NCBI RefSeq assembly: GCF_000964005.1
Contig: NZ_JXYP01000030.1
Coordinates: 62,001-126,000, forward strand
Reading direction: 5' to 3'
Length of the DNA: 64,000 nt
Source of the DNA: Williamsia herbipolensis
GTDB lineage: Bacteria > Actinomycetota > Actinomycetes > Mycobacteriales > Mycobacteriaceae
Position 1 is the stretch's first letter. Each line of letters opens with the position of its first letter. Shown in pieces: positions 19,623 to 30,085 of the stretch. Below the pieces are notes generated by a model. It did no database searches and was not told the origin of the DNA. It worked only from the letters and a program-made list of their open reading frames with translations. The translations under genes were made by a program, and so were the position numbers.

Positions 19623-19702
19623 CCACCGAACACAAAGGACGGCCGCCCCCACCACCCCCGGGGCCGCGGCCGGACACATACGCAAAGGCCCAGGTGACCC
19701 CT

Positions 19703-22700
19703 ATGACCCTCGCAACCGACCGTCGCAACGACGGCCCGACCGACCCGCACCGAGACGGTGCGACCGCGTTCTCCCTCGACGACCGCTACACCCGGGAGTC
19801 CGGCACGATCTACCTCACCGGCATCCAGGCGCTGGTCCGCATGGTCACAGACCGCGCCCGGCTCGATCGCCGCACCGGCCTCCACACCGCGTCGTTCATC
19901 TCCGGCTACGAGGGATCCCCACTCGCCGGCTACGACCTCGAGATCGGACGCCGACGTCGACACCTCGAACCGTGGGACGTCACCCATCGCCCCGCCCTGA
20001 ACGAGGAACTCGCCGCGACCTCGGTGATGGGTTCACAGGTCGCCGCCCGGGTCGGCCACCTCGCCGCTGACGCCGGCGGCCACGACCGCGACGGCGTCGT
20101 CGGGTACTGGTACGGCAAGGCACCCGGTCTCGACCGCGCATCGGACGCCCTGCGCCACGCGAACCTCATCGGCACCCACCACCACGGGGGCGCGGTGGCC
20201 CTCGTCGGCGACGACCCGGGCGCGAAGAGCTCCACGGTCCCGTGCGCGTCGGAGATGGCGCTGGCCGACCTGTACATGCCGATCCTCTACCCCGCCGACT
20301 CGCAGGACATCCTCGACTTCGGCATCCACGCGGCGATGATGTCGCGGGTGTCGGGACTGTGGACGTCGATGAAGATCTCCGCCCACGTCGCCGACGGCGC
20401 ATCGACCGCGGTCGTCGACCCCGAACGGATCGTGCCGGTCTACGGCGATCTGGGGACCAGCCCGCACATCCCGAGCGGCAAACTGCTCGGCGCAAACCTG
20501 ATGGAGCTCGAACAGAACCAGCTGACCATCCGCAAGCCGCGCGCCGAGGAATACGCGCGGCTGAACCGGCTCAACAGGATCGTGTCGCGCACGGCCGACG
20601 ATCGCATCGGCATCGTCGCCGCGGGCAAGACCTACCTCGACGTACGAGAGGCGTTGCGACTCATCGGTGTCGGCGACGACGAGCTGGGCGCGCTGGGGAT
20701 CCGGATCCTGAAGCTCGGCATGGTCTACCCGTTCGAGCGCCAGATCCTCGACGAGTTCGTCGCCGGTCTCGACGAGGTGATCGTGGTGGAGGAGAAGCGC
20801 GATTTCATCGAGACGATGATGCGCGACATCCTATTTCGTCGACCAGAAGCCCCGGCGATCGTCGGCAAGACCAACGAGGATGGGTCCACCCTGTTCTCGC
20901 GGTTCGGGGAACTCGACACCGACGCGGTGGTACGCGGACTGGCGTCGCGCCTCGCCCGCCGCCACCACGTGCCCGCCGCGGTCGACTGGATCGAGCGCCA
21001 GAGCCGCAAACGCACCCGCATCGAACTGCCGCTCGCCGTGCGCAGTCCCTACTTCTGTTCGGGGTGCCCGCACAACAGTTCCACCAAGGTCTCCGACGAC
21101 ACCCTCGTCGGAGCCGGGATCGGTTGCCACGCCATGGTTCTGCTGATGGATCCGGCGCAGGTCGGCGACGTCACCGGCGTCACCCAGATGGGCGGGGAGG
21201 GCGCGCAGTGGTTGGGCATGGCGCCCTTCCTCACCGAACGCCACTTCGTGCAGAACGTCGGCGACGGCACCTTCATGCACTCGGGGTCCCTCGCGCTGCG
21301 CTACGCCGTCGCCTCCGGCGAGAACATCACCTACAAGTTGCTCTACAACGGCACCGTCGCGATGACCGGCGGCCAGGACGCCGTCGGCGCGCAGGGACTA
21401 CCGCAACTGACGGCGTTGCTGCTCGCCGAAGGGGTCCGCCGCGTCGTGATCACCTCCGACGACCCGACCCGCACCCGCGCACTGGGTCTGCCGGCGGGGG
21501 TGACCGTCCGGCACCGCGACGACATGCTCGAGGTGCAGAACGAGCTGGCCGCGGTCACGGGCGTCACCGTTCTCGTGCACGATCAGCACTGCGCTGCGGA
21601 GAAGCGACGGAAGCGCAAGCGCGGCACCGCGCCGGTCCCGACCCAGCGCGTGATGATCAACGAACGCATCTGCGAGGGGTGCGGCGACTGCGGCGAGACG
21701 TCCAACTGCCTGTCGGTGCACCCGGTGGAGACCGAGTTCGGGCGCAAGACCCACATCGACCAGAGCTCGTGCAATCTCGACTTCTCGTGCCTCAAGGGCG
21801 ACTGCCCGTCGTTCGTGACCGTGACACCCGGAACCGCACCGACCCGTCGCGCGGCCGTCGATGATCTCGCGGCCGACTCGGTGGCCGAACCGGCACACCG
21901 GCGCACCGCGACCGACGGCTTCCGCCTGCGTGTGACGGGTATCGGCGGCACCGGTGTCGTCACGGTGTCGCAGGTGCTCGCCACCGCGGGTGTCCTCGAC
22001 GGCCACGACGCACGCACCGTCGACATGACCGGTCTCGCCCAGAAGGGCGGAGCGGTGGTGAGCGACGTCAAGATCGGGCCGCCCACATCCGACGGCCCGA
22101 TCGAGCAGGCGGCGAAGATCGCCTCCGGTGACTGCGACCTGTACCTGTCGTGCGATCCGCTCGTCGGTGCCGACCCTGTGAACCTCAAGGTGGCGAGTCC
22201 GGACCGGACGACAGCCGTTGTGTCGACGAGCGCGATCCCGACCGGCGCCATGGTCGTCGACACCTCCGTCGGCTTCCCCTCCGACCAGCAGATCCACGAC
22301 GCGATCGACCGTGCGACCGGACGGGCGGTCTACCTCGACCCGATGGCGTTGGCCACCGACCTGTTCGGCGACGAGCAGTACGCCAACATGCTGATGGTCG
22401 GGGCGGCGTATCAGACGGGGGCGCTGGCGATCTCGGCCGAGTCACTGGAACAGGCGATCGAGCTCAACGGTGTCGCGGTGGCCGCGAACCTGCAGGCGTT
22501 CCGACGCGGACGTCACGTGGTCGCCGAGCCCGATGCCGTGCGCGAGGCGATCGCGCAACGGCACCCGCAGCCGGTCGCGACGCAGCCCTCGGCCATCGCA
22601 CGAGAGATGATCGCACCGCTGGGTGATCTCGACGACGAGGTGCGCGAGCTCGTGCTTCGGCGGGTCGACGAGCTGATCGCGTACCAGGATCGGCGCTACG

Positions 22701-23266
22701 CGCAGGCCTTCCTGGACGACGTCGAACGGGTCCGGGTGGCCGAGGCGGCCCTGGGCTCCTCGCGTCTCACGGTCGCCGTCGTGCGCCACCTGTTCAAGCT
22801 CATGGCCTACAAGGATGAGTACGAGGTGGCCCGGCTGACCGCCGACGCCACCTTCGCGGTCGAGGTCGCCGGCCAGTTCGGCGACGACGCGAAGGTCGCG
22901 GTGCGCTTGCACCCGCCGACGTTGCGGGCGATGGGCATGCGGAACAAGCTGTCGCTGGGCGGCTGGGCGCGACCGGCGCTCTCGGGTCTGGCGCGGGCGA
23001 AGAGGCTGCGGGGCACCCGACTCGACCCGTTCGGTCGGGCCGAGGTGCGCCGTACCGAGCGCGCACTCGTCGCGGAGTACCGCGAGCTCCTCGGCGCGAT
23101 GGTCACAGCACTGCGGAGCGGGGAGATCGACAGAGATCGACTCGACGCCGCCGTGGCGCTGGCCGAGCTGCCCGACATGGTGCGCGGATACGAGTCGATC
23201 AAGATGGCGAACGTCGAGCGTTATCGGGCGGAACTGTCGCGACAGCGGGGTGCGCTGGGCGTCTGA
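19703..23266 (+). CDS. Fused indolepyruvate:ferredoxin oxidoreductase family protein (IorAB-like)
   Basis: 1187 residues, the length of single-chain IOR proteins. These oxidatively decarboxylate aryl- or branched-chain 2-oxo acids to acyl-CoA using TPP, Fe-S and ferredoxin. Order of parts: N-terminal pyrimidine-binding POR domain (HTASFISGYEGSPLAGYD); a conserved FCSGCPHNSS cysteine motif; the TPP-binding block (GIGCHAM, TQMGGEGAQWLG, YNGTVAMTGGQD); a cysteine-rich segment (CEGCGDCGETSNC); and the C-terminal gamma domain (GIGGTGVVTVSQVLATAG, TGLAQKGGAVVSDV). The ATG at 19703 follows AGGTGA. It ends 3 bp from the convergent HNH gene. Its pairing with the CoA-ligase operon suggests catabolism of an aromatic or branched amino acid. 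Confidence 0.9.
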   Translation: MTLATDRRNDGPTDPHRDGATAFSLDDRYTRESGTIYLTGIQALVRMVTDRARLDRRTGLHTASFISGYEGSPLAGYDLEIGRRRRHLEPWDVTHRPALNEELAATSVMGSQVAARVGHLAADAGGHDRDGVVGYWYGKAPGLDRASDALRHANLIGTHHHGGAVALVGDDPGAKSSTVPCASEMALADLYMPILYPADSQDILDFGIHAAMMSRVSGLWTSMKISAHVADGASTAVVDPERIVPVYGDLGTSPHIPSGKLLGANLMELEQNQLTIRKPRAEEYARLNRLNRIVSRTADDRIGIVAAGKTYLDVREALRLIGVGDDELGALGIRILKLGMVYPFERQILDEFVAGLDEVIVVEEKRDFIETMMRDILFRRPEAPAIVGKTNEDGSTLFSRFGELDTDAVVRGLASRLARRHHVPAAVDWIERQSRKRTRIELPLAVRSPYFCSGCPHNSSTKVSDDTLVGAGIGCHAMVLLMDPAQVGDVTGVTQMGGEGAQWLGMAPFLTERHFVQNVGDGTFMHSGSLALRYAVASGENITYKLLYNGTVAMTGGQDAVGAQGLPQLTALLLAEGVRRVVITSDDPTRTRALGLPAGVTVRHRDDMLEVQNELAAVTGVTVLVHDQHCAAEKRRKRKRGTAPVPTQRVMINERICEGCGDCGETSNCLSVHPVETEFGRKTHIDQSSCNLDFSCLKGDCPSFVTVTPGTAPTRRAAVDDLAADSVAEPAHRRTATDGFRLRVTGIGGTGVVTVSQVLATAGVLDGHDARTVDMTGLAQKGGAVVSDVKIGPPTSDGPIEQAAKIASGDCDLYLSCDPLVGADPVNLKVASPDRTTAVVSTSAIPTGAMVVDTSVGFPSDQQIHDAIDRATGRAVYLDPMALATDLFGDEQYANMLMVGAAYQTGALAISAESLEQAIELNGVAVAANLQAFRRGRHVVAEPDAVREAIAQRHPQPVATQPSAIAREMIAPLGDLDDEVRELVLRRVDELIAYQDRRYAQAFLDDVERVRVAEAALGSSRLTVAVVRHLFKLMAYKDEYEVARLTADATFAVEVAGQFGDDAKVAVRLHPPTLRAMGMRNKLSLGGWARPALSGLARAKRLRGTRLDPFGRAEVRRTERALVAEYRELLGAMVTALRSGEIDRDRLDAAVALAELPDMVRGYESIKMANVERYRAELSRQRGALGV

Positions 23267-23269
23267 GCG

Positions 23270-24664
23270 TCACCGCACCGGATGGGTGGTGAGCTCGGCA
23301 ACGGTGTCGCGGTGGGTCCAGGTGATCGACCGGTCGGGGTGCATGTGGGCATGCCAGAGCCCAACGGTCTTCACGTGGTGATGGAGCACGCACAGCAACG
23401 CGAGGTTGATCCTGATCGTCCACCCGCCGGCGGTCGGGTTCGTGTGGTCGAACGGGATCTGGTGGTCGATCTCGCAGGCACCGGGCGGTTGGTTGCAGTA
23501 CGGGAACCGGCAGTGCTGATCGTGATCGGTGATCCAGTTCCGTAGCGACCGTGACGGTGTGTAGGCGAGCGCACCTGGGGGCGGTCCGGGAGCCGGCGTG
23601 TGACCGGACGTCTGACGATGACCGTCGCGGATGCAGCCGACGGTGCCCGCGGGCTGGAGCGGTCCACGACGGGCACCAGCGGCCGACGTCGACGACTGGG
23701 CGGTGAGGATGTCATCGTACAACATTCGCCACGGCGCGTCCGCCGAGAGTGACAGCGCCAGTGCGGGGTCGATGGCACCGTGACCGTCGATCCACGGGGT
23801 CATCTCACCGCCATGGCCAATGAGCGTCGAGGCGTCGGCGTGCACGACGACGAGAGTGGGGGCCGGCACCAGCTCGGTGGAGGGTGCACCGGACGCACCG
23901 GGGCAATCGTCGGCGCCGCACCAGCACGACAGCGTGGTCTCGCCACGGATGAGTGCGAGGTGAGCTGCGGCTCGCTTCTGGCCGATGCGTCGGGAATCAC
24001 CAGGGCACAGTGTGGCGACGAGCGCAGCGATGCGCCCGTCGATCTCGACGCCATCCTGCGCCGGAACACATCCGGTGATGGCGGAGTGGCCGTGCCGGTC
24101 GGGCTTCACGCGGAAGTCCTGCTGCTCGGCGAAGTCCCGTCGATCGCGTGCGGCCTGCTCGGGATCGAGCTCGATGCACATCTCTTCGAGCCTGTCGCGG
24201 AGTTGTCGGTGCGACATCGCCGTGTCGGCGTCGAGCCGGATGGCCTCGGCCTCGAGCTGTTTGCGCACGAGCGGCTCGTGGCCGGCGATGGTGGTGGCGA
24301 TCATGTTCACGCGATAGAAGTCCATGTCGCCGTGGAGAAATGCGGCACGGAGGTCTGGGAGGTCGTCGAGCAGAATCGACAACCCGATGATCGTCGTGGC
24401 CTTCGACGTCGACACGCCGAGTGCGGTGGCGACCTCGACGGTGGCGCCCTTGTCGGCGATGTTGCCGAACTGCGGACCCATCCCGTCGTCGCCCGCCGAG
24501 ATCGCCGCGAACCTGATCGCATGCAGACGACCCGCCGCGATGACCTTGGCTGCTGCGCAACGGTTCTCCGACCGCTGAGCGTCCTGCGCCATCTGCGTCG
24601 CGATACGGGCGGACGGCGACGCCACCAGGTCGTCGACCCCCGTGACATCCACCCCCGCGAACAT
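23270..24664 (-). CDS. DUF222 / HNH endonuclease-domain protein (13E12-repeat family), copy 1
   Basis: 464 residues from the ATG at 24664. The N-terminal DUF222 domain covers about residues 1-300 (QRSENRCAAAKVIAAGRLHAI, GNIADKGATVEVATALGVS). The C-terminal HNH nuclease motif reads CRFPYCNQPPGACEIDHQIP, then NLALLCVLHHHVKT: paired cysteines, Asp-His and His-His. The family is abundant and variable in Gordonia and its relatives, and in M. tuberculosis it is the REP13E12 family; the biological role is unclear. Its promoter has a RecA-independent damage motif and gives a nearly leaderless message. It converges on IOR with no terminator. Confidence 0.88.
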   Translation of the reverse strand: MFAGVDVTGVDDLVASPSARIATQMAQDAQRSENRCAAAKVIAAGRLHAIRFAAISAGDDGMGPQFGNIADKGATVEVATALGVSTSKATTIIGLSILLDDLPDLRAAFLHGDMDFYRVNMIATTIAGHEPLVRKQLEAEAIRLDADTAMSHRQLRDRLEEMCIELDPEQAARDRRDFAEQQDFRVKPDRHGHSAITGCVPAQDGVEIDGRIAALVATLCPGDSRRIGQKRAAAHLALIRGETTLSCWCGADDCPGASGAPSTELVPAPTLVVVHADASTLIGHGGEMTPWIDGHGAIDPALALSLSADAPWRMLYDDILTAQSSTSAAGARRGPLQPAGTVGCIRDGHRQTSGHTPAPGPPPGALAYTPSRSLRNWITDHDQHCRFPYCNQPPGACEIDHQIPFDHTNPTAGGWTIRINLALLCVLHHHVKTVGLWHAHMHPDRSITWTHRDTVAELTTHPVR

Positions 24665-24670
24665 GACATC

Positions 24671-24693
24671 AGCGTAGGGGCACCCTCCGACAA
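24671..24693 (-). promoter_or_regulatory. RecA-independent DNA-damage (PafBC-type) promoter of DUF222/HNH copy 1
   Basis: On the minus strand: TTGTC, 12 bp, TACGCT, 6 bp, ATG. The mycobacterial RecA-NDp consensus as I remember it is tTGTCRgtg-N8-TAnnaTkg, which has the same 12-bp spacing between TTGTC and TA. It is nearly identical in layout to the promoter at 59248-59270. Confidence 0.65.
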
Positions 24694-24828
24694 CGCACCT
24701 CGGACGACAACTGCCACGGCACTCTGTCCACAGGAGCACTCCGTCCACAGACGCGCATCGGAGCGATACACCGGGTCCATTTTCTGACACCAGTGACAAA
24801 TTATGAACAAGACTGCTAAATTCGAGCC

Positions 24829-25440
24829 GTGGCCACGACACCGACAGCCAAGCCGTCGACCTTCATCCAGGAGAAGCGCCGTCGGCAACTCGTCGACGCG
24901 ACCATCACGGTGCTCGCCGAGACCGGTGTCGCAGGAGCCACCTTCGTGGCCATCGCCGCACGCGCGGGCGTGAGTCGCGGGGTCATCAACTACCACTTCG
25001 CCGATCGTGCGGCCCTGCTCGACGCCGTGGTGGTGCACATCTACTCGCTCGGCCGCGACGAGGTCGAGTCGTCCGTCCGGGGCGCGAGCTCACCGGCCGC
25101 CGCGATACGAGCGATGATCACCGGCAGCATCGCCTTCTACGCCCGGCACATCCACGAGATGATCGCGCTGTCGGCGATCTACCGCTCCGACGATGTCGAC
25201 ACCGTCGGACGTGGCGATCGCGGCGAGCACTCCGCCGAGATGGCAAAGCTGACGGCGATCCTGCGGCGCGGGCAGCGTGCTCGCGAGTTCCGCCGGTTCG
25301 ATGTCGACGTGATGGCCGCGTCGATTCGCGCCGTTCTCGATTCGGCCATCGGCCAGTTGGCCGGCGGCGCCGATCCCACCCGCCTGGGTCGCGAGATCGG
25401 CAACCTGTTCGACGCAGCGACCCGATCGGAGACGTCATGA
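24829..25440 (+). CDS. TetR-family transcriptional regulator
   Basis: 203 residues. The N-terminal TetR DNA-binding domain is at about 15-60 (LVDATITVLAETGVAGATFVAIAARAGVSRGVINYHF). The ligand-binding domain is not assignable to a known ligand. The GTG start at 24829 has no ribosome site. A plausible -10 (TAAATT) ends about 6 bp before it and a GTGACA -35 lies 18 bp further up, so the message may be leaderless. The stop overlaps the ATG of the esterase gene (ATGA), so regulator and enzyme form one unit and the esterase is the likely target. Confidence 0.88.
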   Translation: MATTPTAKPSTFIQEKRRRQLVDATITVLAETGVAGATFVAIAARAGVSRGVINYHFADRAALLDAVVVHIYSLGRDEVESSVRGASSPAAAIRAMITGSIAFYARHIHEMIALSAIYRSDDVDTVGRGDRGEHSAEMAKLTAILRRGQRAREFRRFDVDVMAASIRAVLDSAIGQLAGGADPTRLGREIGNLFDAATRSETS

Positions 25441-27035
25441 GGAAGACCCTCTGCACCCTCACCGCGCTCGCAGTGATGGCCACCGCGGCATGTGGTGACG
25501 ACAACCGGCCCGCTTCGGTCCCCACCGACGCACCGCTGCGCGTGGAGACCAGCAGCGGTGTGCTGCAAGGGAGGGCCGACACGACCACCCGGCAGTTCCT
25601 CGGCATCCGGTACGCCCAGCCGCCCACCGGCGCGCAGCGGTGGACGCTGCCCACATCGGTCGACACCCCCGACGCCCGCGTGGACGCCACCAGACCCGGT
25701 GCGCAATGCGAGCAGGTCCCGACGCCGGGTGTCACGTCCACGTCGAGCGAGGACTGCCTCTTCGTGAACGTCACGACCCCGCGAAAGATCACGGCGGGCA
25801 CGCCGCTACCCGTGATGGTCTGGTGGCACGGAGGCGGTTACACGACGGGCTCCGGCTCCGCCTACGACGCACAGCGACTCGCCGACACCGGCGACGTCAT
25901 GGTCGTGACGGTGAACTACCGTCTCGGCATCTTCGGCTATCTCGCACTCCCCGGACTCAAGGGCGGCGGGGACTTCGGGTTGGCCGACCAGCTCGAGTCA
26001 CTGCGATGGGTGGAGCGGAACGCGAAGGCGTTCGGCGGCGACCCCGGCAACGTCACCGTCTTCGGCGAGTCCGCCGGCGGGATGTCGACATGCGCAGCGC
26101 TCACCTCGCCGGCCGCGCGCGGCCTCATCGACAAGGCCATCGTCTCGTCGGGATCGTGTGCACTGGTGTTCCCCGCGGGGGCCTTCTATCCCGGAGTGCC
26201 GCAGCAGCGACCGTACGTACCCGCCGCGACCGCCATCGCGACGGGGACGACTGCCGCGCAGGCCCTGGGATGCGCCGGCACCACGACCCTCGACTGCCTG
26301 CGATCGCGGCCGACGTCGGCGCTTCTCGAGCAGAACGAGAACTTCAGCAACGATCTCGCCTTCGGGACCGACCTGCTCCCCCGTGATCCTCGAGCCGCCG
26401 TCACCTCGGGTGACACGCTACGTGTCCCGATGATCTCCGGCGGCAACCGCGACGAGAACGACGCCTTCACCGCCGGCGCGCTCGCCGCGACGCCGACCGC
26501 GTACACCACGGAGTCGTTCGCGAACGATCTCCGGGCCGCCTACGGCGCACGCGCCGGCGATGTCGCGCAACGGTATCCGCTGTCGCGTTTCGCCGGCGCA
26601 CCGGCCGCCCTCGCCCGTACGTTCACCGATGCCGGTTGGGCCTGTCCGACAACGCGTTCCGCACAGCAGTACGCGGCGCACGCACCGGTGTTCAGCTACG
26701 AGTTCTCCGACGAGACCGGGCCCAACGTGAGCGGTGGATCGTCACCGCAGATCCCGAAGGCGGCATTCCACGCCAACGATCTGCCGTACATCTTCGACAT
26801 CGGCGGACGGGATCTCGTGCCGAACGACCCGCAGGCAGCGTTGTCGCGCAGCATGATCGAGTATTGGACGTCGTTCGCGCACACGGGCACTCCCAGCACC
26901 GAGAACGCGCCGACCTGGCCCCGGACCACCACCGCGTCAGCGCCCGTTCTCGGGTTCACGTCGTCGGGCGTTCGCCTGGTCGACCATGCCGCCGACCACC
27001 AATGCTCGTTCTGGGCAGGTGTGGCTGTGCGCTGA
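25437..27035 (+). CDS. Type B carboxylesterase, probable secreted lipoprotein
   Basis: 532 residues of the carboxylesterase/lipase alpha/beta-hydrolase family. The N-terminus MRKTLCTLTALAVMATAACG is a lipoprotein-type signal peptide with cysteine at the cleavage site, placing the enzyme outside the membrane. Family motifs: LGIRYAQPP, SEDCLFVNV, VWWHGGGYTTGSG (oxyanion hole), and FGESAGG with nucleophile Ser212. GGNRDENDAF supplies the acidic residue and FHANDLPYIF the histidine. Coupled to the upstream TetR gene. The natural ester is unknown. Confidence 0.9.
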   Translation: MRKTLCTLTALAVMATAACGDDNRPASVPTDAPLRVETSSGVLQGRADTTTRQFLGIRYAQPPTGAQRWTLPTSVDTPDARVDATRPGAQCEQVPTPGVTSTSSEDCLFVNVTTPRKITAGTPLPVMVWWHGGGYTTGSGSAYDAQRLADTGDVMVVTVNYRLGIFGYLALPGLKGGGDFGLADQLESLRWVERNAKAFGGDPGNVTVFGESAGGMSTCAALTSPAARGLIDKAIVSSGSCALVFPAGAFYPGVPQQRPYVPAATAIATGTTAAQALGCAGTTTLDCLRSRPTSALLEQNENFSNDLAFGTDLLPRDPRAAVTSGDTLRVPMISGGNRDENDAFTAGALAATPTAYTTESFANDLRAAYGARAGDVAQRYPLSRFAGAPAALARTFTDAGWACPTTRSAQQYAAHAPVFSYEFSDETGPNVSGGSSPQIPKAAFHANDLPYIFDIGGRDLVPNDPQAALSRSMIEYWTSFAHTGTPSTENAPTWPRTTTASAPVLGFTSSGVRLVDHAADHQCSFWAGVAVR

Positions 27036-27044
27036 CAATGTGTA

Positions 27045-27779
27045 TCAGCTGACGTAGCTGCTTCCGTTCCAGCGCAGGACCTTCGAGGTGACCGTGCCTC
27101 CCGCACAGGACGGTTCGCAGTCGTTGCTCGATTCCTTGATCGCGTACGCACCCGACGCATCGGGGCCCTGGAGGTCGGCGTAGTAATACCGCAACGGGCC
27201 GGTCGCGTAGTCGGCCCCGATCGGCGAGAAGCCGTCGGCTGTGGGGTGCAGCACGATGATGCCGTCGTATCGGCCCGGGTTGTACGTCACGAACATGTTG
27301 CTGTTCGAGTCCGGCGCCGATGCGGCCATCGCCCATCTGCTCTCGCCGTTGTTGTCGGCAAAACTCCAGCGGATCGTCCCGGATCCGTCGACCGCGAGGA
27401 TGCAGGCCGGCTGCGGACCGATGCCCTTCCCCAGAACGGTGAACATGCGTGTCGGCCCCCACGACGGGTGCACGACATCGACGGTTCCGGTCACCTTCGT
27501 GTTCGCACACAGGGCCGGGGCGCCGTTCGTCGGAGGCTCCGCGGGCAGCGCGGCGGTGGCGGGCGGGGTGGCCGTGTCGGCGCCCGACGTCGTCCCGTCG
27601 CTGGTGGAATCTGCGGTCGGGTCGCCGCCCACCGATGTACCGGTCGACGCGGACGCTGTCACCGTCACGGTGCGCGCAACTGCCGGACCGTCGTCGGATC
27701 CGCAGCCGGCACACAGCGCGACCATCGCTCCCACCGCCGCCAGGGCTCCGAGAAGGCGGCCAGCACTGTTGACAGACAT
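27045..27779 (-). CDS. Hypothetical lipoprotein
   Basis: 244 residues. The signal peptide MSVNSAGRLLGALAAVGAMV ends in a lipobox (ALCAGC). A Thr/Ser/Ala/Pro-rich linker (~55 residues, probably extended) follows, then a small C-terminal domain with four cysteines (ALCANTK, QPACILAVDG, NDCEPSC) that could form two disulfides. I do not recognise the family. The start could also be a GTG at 27788. It is divergent from the heliorhodopsin with 92 bp between starts and a strong palindrome between them, so the two may share a regulator. It converges with the esterase (9-bp gap). Confidence 0.75.
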   Translation of the reverse strand: MSVNSAGRLLGALAAVGAMVALCAGCGSDDGPAVARTVTVTASASTGTSVGGDPTADSTSDGTTSGADTATPPATAALPAEPPTNGAPALCANTKVTGTVDVVHPSWGPTRMFTVLGKGIGPQPACILAVDGSGTIRWSFADNNGESRWAMAASAPDSNSNMFVTYNPGRYDGIIVLHPTADGFSPIGADYATGPLRYYYADLQGPDASGAYAIKESSNDCEPSCAGGTVTSKVLRWNGSSYVS

Positions 27780-27824
27780 GTTCGTCACGGTAACGGCCCT
27801 GGCGTCCTCCGGCCCGGATTCGGT

Positions 27825-27864
27825 GAACTGTTCGCGCGAACGCAGTTCCTCCCTGCCGTAGCGT
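27825..27864. promoter_or_regulatory. Palindromic operator and -10 element at the heliorhodopsin promoter
   Basis: GAACTG (27825-27830) and CAGTTC (27843-27848) flank the perfect palindrome TTCGCGCGAA (27831-27840). A -10-like TAGCGT at 27859-27864 lies 7 bp before the heliorhodopsin ATG, so the palindrome would cover the -35 region and the message would be leaderless. It is also upstream of the divergent lipoprotein gene. Confidence 0.55.
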
Positions 27865-27871
27865 CGGACCC

Positions 27872-28660
27872 ATGTCGACACCCCAGAGGTCCGGCCCGAT
27901 CGCCACAGGCGTCACCGACTCCGCGCTCGCCGGACTGCGGCGGTGGAACATCGGTCTGACCGTGCTCCACGCGGCGCAGGCGGTGGCGATCCTGCTGTTG
28001 GGCAACGGTTTCGCCATCACCGTCAACTCGTCGTTCCCCACCGGTCCACCCGGCGCGGCCCAACCGCCGCCGTCGTCGTTGGTCGACGTGTCGATCGGCG
28101 CCGCGATCGCGGTGTTCCTGTTCCTCGCGGCCGCCGATCACCTGCTCACCGCGACCGTCGCACGCGGGATCTACGAGTCGGATCTGCGTCGCGGCATCAA
28201 CAGGTTCCGGTGGATCGAGTACTCGATCAGCGCAACCATCATGATCGTGCTGATCGGTTTCTACTTCGGTCTCACCGATATCGGCACCGTGATCGTCGTG
28301 TGCGGCGCGAACATCGCGATGATCCTGTTCGGCTGGCTGCAGGAGCGCACGAACCCACCCGGCCGCGCCGACACCACGATGCTGCCGTTCTGGTTCGGAT
28401 GCGTCGCGGGCGCGGCCCCCTGGGTCGCGATCGTGGTCAACTTCGTGGGCGCGGGCGACCGGGTGCCCGGGTTCGTGATCGGCATCTTCGTGTCGCTGCT
28501 CGTCTTCTTCTCCACCTTCGCGATCAATCAGTGGTTGCAGTACCGCGAGATCGGCCCGTGGCGCAGCTATGCGTTCGGCGAGAAGACGTACCTGGTGCTG
28601 AGCCTCGTCGCGAAGTCACTCCTGGCCTGGCAGATCTTCGGTGGCTCACTGGCCGTGTGA
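27872..28660 (+). CDS. Heliorhodopsin
   Basis: 262 residues with seven predicted membrane helices. The retinal Schiff-base lysine is K248 in SLVAKSLLAWQIFGGSL, the helix-7 signature of heliorhodopsins (not DxxxK of type-1 rhodopsins). E116 in FRWIEYSISATIM matches the single counterion in helix 3. H33 (VLHAAQA) and H90 (AADHLL) match the conserved inner-cavity histidines, and LRRWN opens helix 1. Heliorhodopsins bind retinal, sit with the N-terminus inside, do not pump ions, and have a largely unknown signalling role. No retinal-forming or carotenoid gene is in the window. The start ATG has no ribosome site and appears leaderless. Downstream, 84 bp on, is a membrane protein gene. Confidence 0.93.
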   Translation: MSTPQRSGPIATGVTDSALAGLRRWNIGLTVLHAAQAVAILLLGNGFAITVNSSFPTGPPGAAQPPPSSLVDVSIGAAIAVFLFLAAADHLLTATVARGIYESDLRRGINRFRWIEYSISATIMIVLIGFYFGLTDIGTVIVVCGANIAMILFGWLQERTNPPGRADTTMLPFWFGCVAGAAPWVAIVVNFVGAGDRVPGFVIGIFVSLLVFFSTFAINQWLQYREIGPWRSYAFGEKTYLVLSLVAKSLLAWQIFGGSLAV

Positions 28661-28744: not shown

Positions 28745-30085
28745 GTGTTCAAGGCCCTGACCACGCGGTGGCGAAAGTTCTACGGCTCGCTGCCGCCCGC
28801 CCTGCAGATGATCGGGCTGCAACTGTGGTTGCCCGTCTTCTTCCTGTTCGCGTTCTGCTTCTGCTATCTGTGGGCGTTCCACTCGCCGCAGATCCACGAC
28901 GCCCCGGTGGCCGTGGTGAACTCCCCCGCCGCCTCGACCTTCACCGATCAGTTCTCGAAGGCGCAGCCCGGCATGTTCGATTTCCGGCTCTACCAGACCG
29001 CCGACGAAGCCACCGAGGCCGTGCGGGACGGCAGCGCCGCCGCGTCGCTCGCCCTGCCGTCGCAGGCGGGCGGCAAGCCGGTCGTCACCATCGCCAGCGC
29101 ACACCAGTTCCAGGCCGCGCAGCTGATGAAGTCCACCTTCACCCAGACCTTCGCGCAGAACGGGGTGGCACCCCAGGTGAACGACATCGCACCGCTGCCC
29201 AAGGGTGACTCCTACGGTCTCGGGGCGATGTACCTGATGCTGTCGTGGTGCATCGGCGGCTACATGGTCGCGATGTTCATCGGCATGATGGGCGCACCGC
29301 TGAGCCACCTCACCCGCGTCAGCATCCTGGCCGGCGGCGCCGCGGTCGCCGCGCTGATCACCAACCTCCTCGCGGGCCCGGTCATCGGTGTCTACGAGGG
29401 CCACCTGCCGCAGATGATCGGCATCTCGTTCCTGTGGATCCTCGCGGTCGGCCTCGCGGTCAACGGTCTGTCGTACTTCTTCGGACGGTTCATCACGGCC
29501 GTCGCATTGCTGATGTTCGTGTTCCTCTCGATCCCGTCCTCCGGCGCGGCCTACCCGACGTGGATGGTGCCGCGGATCTTCGGCGACCTGAATCCGCTGG
29601 TCGTCGGCCACGGCATCACCGAGATGATCAAGCGCGTCCTGTACGGCGTCGGCGAACCGTACTGGCAGCCGTTCCTCCTGATGGGCGGGTACGCACTGCT
29701 CGGCATCGTCACGATGATCGTCGGCAAGCGCTGGCGTGAGAGCAAGGAGTTCGATCGGATCCTCGCGGGCAAGACGACCATGATGGCCGCCGCGCAGGGC
29801 GCCATGATGCGCAAGGGGATGGCCGACCGCGAGCGGATCCTCACCGCGCACGGTCTCGACTCCGACGCCAACCCGATCGAGGAGAGCCCGAACGAGAAGG
29901 ACCGGTTGACCGACGATCCCGACACCTCGGAGGGGGGTCACTACTCCGTCGACGACATGGAGACGCAGTTCCGCGGTGACCCGATGCTCAACGGCAACAA
30001 CCTCGGTGGCGGCTTCGCCGACGAGGAGCGCGAGTACGAGATGCGAGAGGCGATCCGCCACCCGAAGCACGAGGCGCCGCGGTAG
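28745..30085 (+). CDS. Multi-pass membrane protein, ABC-2/YhgE-Pip/DUF3533-like
   Basis: 446 residues from a GTG at 28745 with GAGGGG seven bases upstream. One N-terminal helix (LQLWLPVFFLFAFCFCYLWAF) is followed by a ~120-residue extracytoplasmic domain (VAVVNSPAASTFTDQF). About five helices come next (MYLMLSWCIGGYMVAMFIG to ALLGIVTMIVG). A ~110-residue charged cytoplasmic tail completes it. The topology and the opening VAVVN-type motif resemble the YhgE/Pip and SNG1/DUF3533 membrane proteins related to ABC-2 permeases, but no ATPase is adjacent. Function unknown; an export or envelope role is inferred. It follows the heliorhodopsin on the same strand but has its own palindromic promoter region. 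Confidence 0.7.
   Translation: MFKALTTRWRKFYGSLPPALQMIGLQLWLPVFFLFAFCFCYLWAFHSPQIHDAPVAVVNSPAASTFTDQFSKAQPGMFDFRLYQTADEATEAVRDGSAAASLALPSQAGGKPVVTIASAHQFQAAQLMKSTFTQTFAQNGVAPQVNDIAPLPKGDSYGLGAMYLMLSWCIGGYMVAMFIGMMGAPLSHLTRVSILAGGAAVAALITNLLAGPVIGVYEGHLPQMIGISFLWILAVGLAVNGLSYFFGRFITAVALLMFVFLSIPSSGAAYPTWMVPRIFGDLNPLVVGHGITEMIKRVLYGVGEPYWQPFLLMGGYALLGIVTMIVGKRWRESKEFDRILAGKTTMMAAAQGAMMRKGMADRERILTAHGLDSDANPIEESPNEKDRLTDDPDTSEGGHYSVDDMETQFRGDPMLNGNNLGGGFADEEREYEMREAIRHPKHEAPR

Follow-up and report, generated by a model that had tools for sequence, protein, structure and literature searches.

Heliorhodopsin (HeR) genes occur in actinobacteria, and their regulation has been little studied; in open-licence literature we found no paper on an HeR operator. 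A Williamsia herbipolensis HeR is named in a supplementary legend of PMC9529153. An HeR gene lies in the 64,000-nucleotide stretch of Williamsia DNA analysed here (the window), and an inverted repeat covers the expected -35 position of its promoter. The question raised by this locus is whether that repeat is an operator of HeR. The original prediction held that it was, and added that an apparently leaderless promoter drives HeR and that the divergent lipoprotein gene, which shares the element, may be a functional partner. The features that bear on these claims are as follows.

19694-23266, + strand: 2-oxoacid ferredoxin oxidoreductase (PF01558, PF20169, PF02775), which we take to be of the indolepyruvate type; found upstream of HeR in six of six HeR-bearing Williamsia
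23270-24841, - strand: DUF222 gene (PF02720, 1.3e-20) between the oxidoreductase and TetR genes; 20-aa tail match in G006
24829-25440, + strand: TetR-family regulator (PF00440, 2.8e-11) of a TetR-esterase cassette
25437-27035, + strand: carboxylesterase (PF00135, 2e-102) of the same cassette
27045-27779, - strand: putative lipoprotein gene divergent from HeR, without a match to any Pfam family
27787-27792, - strand: TACCGT, separated by 7 bp from the lipoprotein ATG, a leaderless-type layout as well
27825-27848, no strand: outer dyad, an exact GAACTG-N12-CAGTTC, overlapping the HeR -35 position
27830-27841, no strand: inner dyad, the perfect 12-bp palindrome GTTCGCGCGAAC, offset by one base from the register of the outer arms
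27859-27864, + strand: -10 element TAGCGT, 7 bp upstream of the HeR ATG at 27872, with a predicted leaderless start
27872-28660, + strand: heliorhodopsin gene, 262 aa (PF18761, NF038020), with landmark residues aligned to 48C12
28745-30085, + strand: ABC2_membrane_3 protein (PF12698, 6.8e-12), 84 bp downstream of HeR

The heliorhodopsin gene and its neighbours

Judged by its product, the gene at 27872-28660 is a genuine, ordinary actinobacterial heliorhodopsin. Profile searches returned full-length matches to PF18761 (E=2.3e-101, 338.6 bits, cut-off 26.7) and NF038020 (E=1.4e-83, 280.2 bits, cut-off 100). In an alignment with the structure sequences of 48C12, in which positions were counted by hand, H33, H90, E116 and K248 correspond to H23, H80, E107 and K241; these are the two histidines, the counterion glutamate and the Schiff-base lysine that serve as HeR landmarks. 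The identification made in the original prediction was thus borne out by both profiles and by all four residues. HeR was present in six of the eight Williamsia genomes searched and in 13 of 401 sampled family genomes. A tree built from 86 HeR proteins placed the six from Williamsia in one clade (support 100/98), with the HeR of a Nitriliruptorales MAG next to it. In the same tree, the HeRs of two contigs labelled as Bifidobacterium breve MAG (L024 and L060) clustered with those of uncultured actinobacteria, and these labels look questionable.

Genes for retinal formation were sought through two families. PF15461 (beta-carotene 15,15'-dioxygenase) had no match in the window's genome (G000), in G001 or in the two HeR-less Williamsia, and was matched in the other four of the six HeR-bearing Williamsia (G003, G004, G006 and G007); a search with the G003 protein agreed with the profile result. 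Matches to PF03055 were confined to G003 and G007, with none in the window's genome or G001. The comparison therefore shows an HeR host with no recognised retinal-forming enzyme of either family sought, and it is possible that retinal comes from outside or is made by an enzyme that escapes both searches.

The surroundings of HeR have been rearranged. The oxidoreductase gene lies upstream and an ABC2-type membrane gene downstream at all six Williamsia loci, sometimes with other genes intervening, and the ABC2-type gene of G006 is only 53% identical. Directly before HeR stands the oxidoreductase gene in G001, G003 and G004 and the esterase gene in G007; the lipoprotein gene takes this place in the window, and what is left of it does so in Williamsia sp. 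CHRR-6 (G006). The TetR-esterase cassette precedes HeR in the window (24829-27035) and in G007 (L117 2641-4869) and follows it in G003 (L113 5066-7278); the G001, G004 and G006 stretches gave no match to it. When the six loci were compared over ~12 kb each, the lipoprotein gene was whole only in the window. In G006 it is in two pieces, with the remnant adjoining HeR; the stretch L115 7902-8352 of this genome, between HeR and the oxidoreductase gene, holds the lipoprotein remnants together with the 20-aa DUF222 tail match. Whole-genome lipoprotein searches covered 61 sampled family genomes, only three of them Williamsia (G000, G006 and G007); a match of any kind was obtained in eight, among them the HeR-less G008. 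A gene that is whole at one of six HeR loci, that G006 has reduced to a remnant while keeping HeR, and that has a homologue in a genome lacking HeR is not a kept partner, and the suggested functional partnership is not supported.

A predicted leaderless promoter

The position of TAGCGT was given correctly by the original prediction (27859-27864, with the ATG at 27872), and the same arrangement, TAGCGT-N7-ATG, precedes HeR in all six HeR-bearing Williamsia among the eight genomes searched. Sequence conservation across the whole set of six does not extend further upstream, and there is no conserved -35. Retention of the -10 element and its spacing despite the rearranged upstream genes is the mark expected of a leaderless promoter. 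On this comparative evidence the leaderless promoter of HeR is well supported, and we infer that transcription starts at the A of the ATG. Within the window, TANCGT-N7-ATG occurs only twice, before HeR and before the lipoprotein gene.

The layout is not general for HeR. Among 90 HeR loci rows, three of which are duplicates, TANNNT was found 5-9 bp before some candidate start in 17, six of them from Williamsia, and a Shine-Dalgarno-like stretch before some candidate start in 43. Another leaderless-type layout, CATGAT-N6-ATG, was seen in 12 rows (L025, L028, L032-L037, L039, L042, L046 and L050), all from Nocardioides and all within a clade of 15 Nocardioidaceae rows. This mixture of layouts indicates that leaderless HeR depends on lineage.

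The inverted repeats over the -35 position

The element was first described as one 24-bp palindrome covering the -35 region. Its location, its exact arms and its overlap with -35 stand: relative to a start at the A of the ATG, it spans -47 to -24, and it is the sole exact copy of GAACTG-N12-CAGTTC in the window. Its unity does not, as it consists of two dyads out of register. The midpoint of the outer 6+6 arms is 27836.5 and that of the inner GTTCGCGCGAAC is 27835.5; when the sequence is folded about the outer midpoint, 8 of 12 pairs match.

Inverted repeats as such are common in this DNA. With arms of at least 6 and a gap of at most 14 as the criterion, some inverted repeat was present in 38% of 20,000 Markov-simulated 92-bp stretches and in 46% of 1390 real stretches of the window; a perfect 12-mer palindrome was present in 4.8% and 5.9%, respectively. 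The nested pair was rare, occurring in 0.18% of simulations, a statistic that was picked post hoc with the site already seen. Near-matches to the outer dyad (at most 3 mismatches) numbered 37 in the window against a shuffle mean of 17.9, with none of 100 shuffles as high. The excess was not particular to N12, since spacings of 6, 9, 10, 13, 15 and 18 gave 45, 34, 31, 31, 38 and 37 near-matches and 5 of 60 shuffled arm pairs reached 37 at N12. Because it appears at other spacings and with shuffled arms, some of which equal or exceed the N12 count, the enrichment resembles an effect of codon composition and was set aside as evidence of an operator.

An exact GAACTG-N10-14-CAGTTC was found upstream of HeR in none of the five HeR-bearing Williamsia relatives, so the scan of related genomes for GAACTG-N12-CAGTTC beside HeR, suggested with the claim of a defined operator, came back empty; the original prediction had itself set absence from relatives that keep the gene against that claim. 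Conservation is thereby ruled out as an argument for an operator. Across 119 loci, exact GAACTG-N10-14-CAGTTC sites were also present in L030/L119 (one genome), L056 and L059, at least 1.6 kb upstream of HeR. In the corresponding stretch, G001, G003 and G006 have unrelated or differently spaced 6-bp dyads, which matches the 38-46% background. A similar dyad is present in G003, where GATCTG-N14-CAGATC lies at -47 to -22, with one change per arm and the same starting position as the window dyad. It is unconvincing as a diverged copy, as its left arm overlaps the oxidoreductase stop codon and the relaxed pattern GAWCTG-N12-14-CAGWTC occurs eight times in the G003 genome and seven times in the window's genome.

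Recurrence within the genome offered no better argument. Four other exact GAACTG-N10-14-CAGTTC sites exist in the window's genome, none recognised as a second operator, and they lie within open frames of 827 (L002), 361 (L005), 602 (L006) and 230 codons (L004, N11). GTTCGCGCGAAC has three copies in the genome, the other two of which (L093 and L094) are within frames of 534 and 1003 codons. This open-frame test is weak: in such GC-rich DNA even the intergenic site of the window falls within frames of 393 and 288 codons. The upstream stretch of the neighbouring TetR gene (24829-25440) has no copy at up to 3 mismatches, and this regulator was rejected as the binder of the dyad.

These observations bear on a reading in which the double dyad is a genuine operator of recent origin, where a dimeric repressor would sit over the HeR -35 and might, at about -58 of the lipoprotein gene, control that gene too. 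The placement over -35, the rarity of nested dyads in simulations and the lineage-specific dyads of other HeR lineages, which make operator turnover plausible, all speak for it, but the dyad is kept in none of five relatives, the other exact copies in the genome fall within open frames (the weak test above) and the TetR upstream stretch has no copy. We regard this reading as unlikely. Still more doubtful is an assignment of the dyad to the promoter of the lipoprotein gene or to the neighbouring cassette, with its closeness to HeR incidental. The lipoprotein gene or its remnant adjoins HeR in the window and G006 alone, and the lipoprotein gene has its own TACCGT-N7-ATG; against this, no exact GAACTG-N10-14-CAGTTC lies near three lipoprotein homologues (L096-L098) or in the remnant-bearing G006.

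We consider it likely that this is an ordinary HeR gene with its own leaderless TAGCGT promoter and that the GAAC dyads are not an ancestral operator. HeR would be transcribed from the TAGCGT-driven promoter into a leaderless mRNA whose first base is the A of the ATG, while the dyads at -35 would be a feature of the species, most likely produced by chance and local sequence history amid rearranged neighbours. GAACTG-N12-CAGTTC is thus probably without function as an HeR operator and either fortuitous or species-specific, as far as comparison of sequences can tell. The rarity of the nested dyad (0.18% of simulations) and its placement exactly over -35, the similar dyad of G003 at the same starting position and the lack of a general leaderless layout for HeR count against this explanation. 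The window itself adds a typical HeR, and the relatives compared show that the operator first proposed is not a general one.

Dyads in other lineages and comparison with known systems

The same comparison points to a better and directly testable candidate. Four of five Rhodococcus-group genomes each have a single copy of CTTACA-N3-TGTAAG, placed at the HeR promoter: G180, G241 and G318, which share the genus of Rhodococcus sp. 14-1411-2a, and G122, which belongs to another. The chance expectation is ~0.055 copies per genome if G+C is 65%. Opposite HeR lies a divergent TetR gene in G180 (contig L065 = L133), G318 (90% identical), G241 (73%) and L055, a Pseudonocardia MAG (61%), and in the last of these the dyad is the variant TTTACA-N3-TGTAAA. 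In G122 the dyad is kept and the TetR match extends over only 31 aa. G200 has no copy of CTTACA-N3-TGTAAG and no TetR match in 9 kb around HeR (L112/L132); the left arm of its dyad is altered, while the right half largely remains. Its HeR (L112) is nested inside the TetR-dyad clade, so that loss is the simplest reading. The loci with TetR and dyad are L065 (= L133), L129, L130 and L055, with L131 and L132 for comparison. A divergent TetR with a once-per-genome dyad is, by these sequence criteria, a better-supported candidate HeR operator than the window dyad.

A third dyad, CGAGACC-N2-GGTCTCG, lies at -78 to -63 of HeR as a single copy per genome in G001, G004 and G007 (L114 3713-3728, L116 3585-3600 and L117 4995-5010). 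Shared ancestry accounts for part of its conservation, as these species form one clade. The window's genome has one copy, away from HeR. When 87 HeR loci were surveyed, with three duplicates dropped and start sites extrapolated, dyads with arms of at least 7 and a gap of at most 6 were present in 20 upstream stretches, compared with 10.6% in simulations. Eight of these 20 came from the TetR clade (five) and the Williamsia trio (three), leaving 12 of 79, and against that background dyads were rejected as a general feature of HeR. Actinobacterial HeR promoters could gain and lose dedicated local repressors by lineage (TetR on CTTACA-N3-TGTAAG in the Rhodococcus group and Pseudonocardia, a factor on CGAGACC-N2-GGTCTCG in three Williamsia, the GAAC double dyad in the window's species), a proposal we offer tentatively and think improbable as a whole. 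If true, expression of HeR would be conditional and its switches exchangeable, set in Williamsia on a conserved leaderless promoter.

The window resembles the divergent TetR/operator arrangement of the Rhodococcus group and the Pseudonocardia MAG in having a dyad at the HeR promoter, but its dyad is unrelated in sequence and no divergent regulator adjoins it; the window's TetR gene is two genes away from HeR, and its product matches the Rhodococcus TetR over only ~50 aa. PMC11109279 lists ten HeR neighbour groups, which include MerR and ABC transporters and do not include TetR. The window's ABC2-type membrane protein and carboxylesterase recall the listed ABC-transporter and alpha/beta-hydrolase groups, although here they are separated from HeR by other genes or by gaps of at least ~80 bp, and the TetR gene has no counterpart in that list. 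Co-transcribed genes within 10 bp of HeR are discussed in section 7 of PMC8612252, the main text of which has no mention of promoter or TetR. Compared with the heliorhodopsin family (PF18761; 48C12, PDB 6su3/6uh3), the window's protein matches over its full length with all four landmark residues, and has nothing distinctive among the features compared. The promoter, too, has a familiar form. For M. tuberculosis, PMC3898074 describes TANNNT -10 motifs that are not accompanied by a conserved -35, and reports a quarter of genes to be leaderless. TAGCGT is likewise centred ~10 bp before the predicted start, and the six Williamsia HeR promoters also have no conserved -35; by that pattern, the architecture predicted for the HeR promoter would be an ordinary one.
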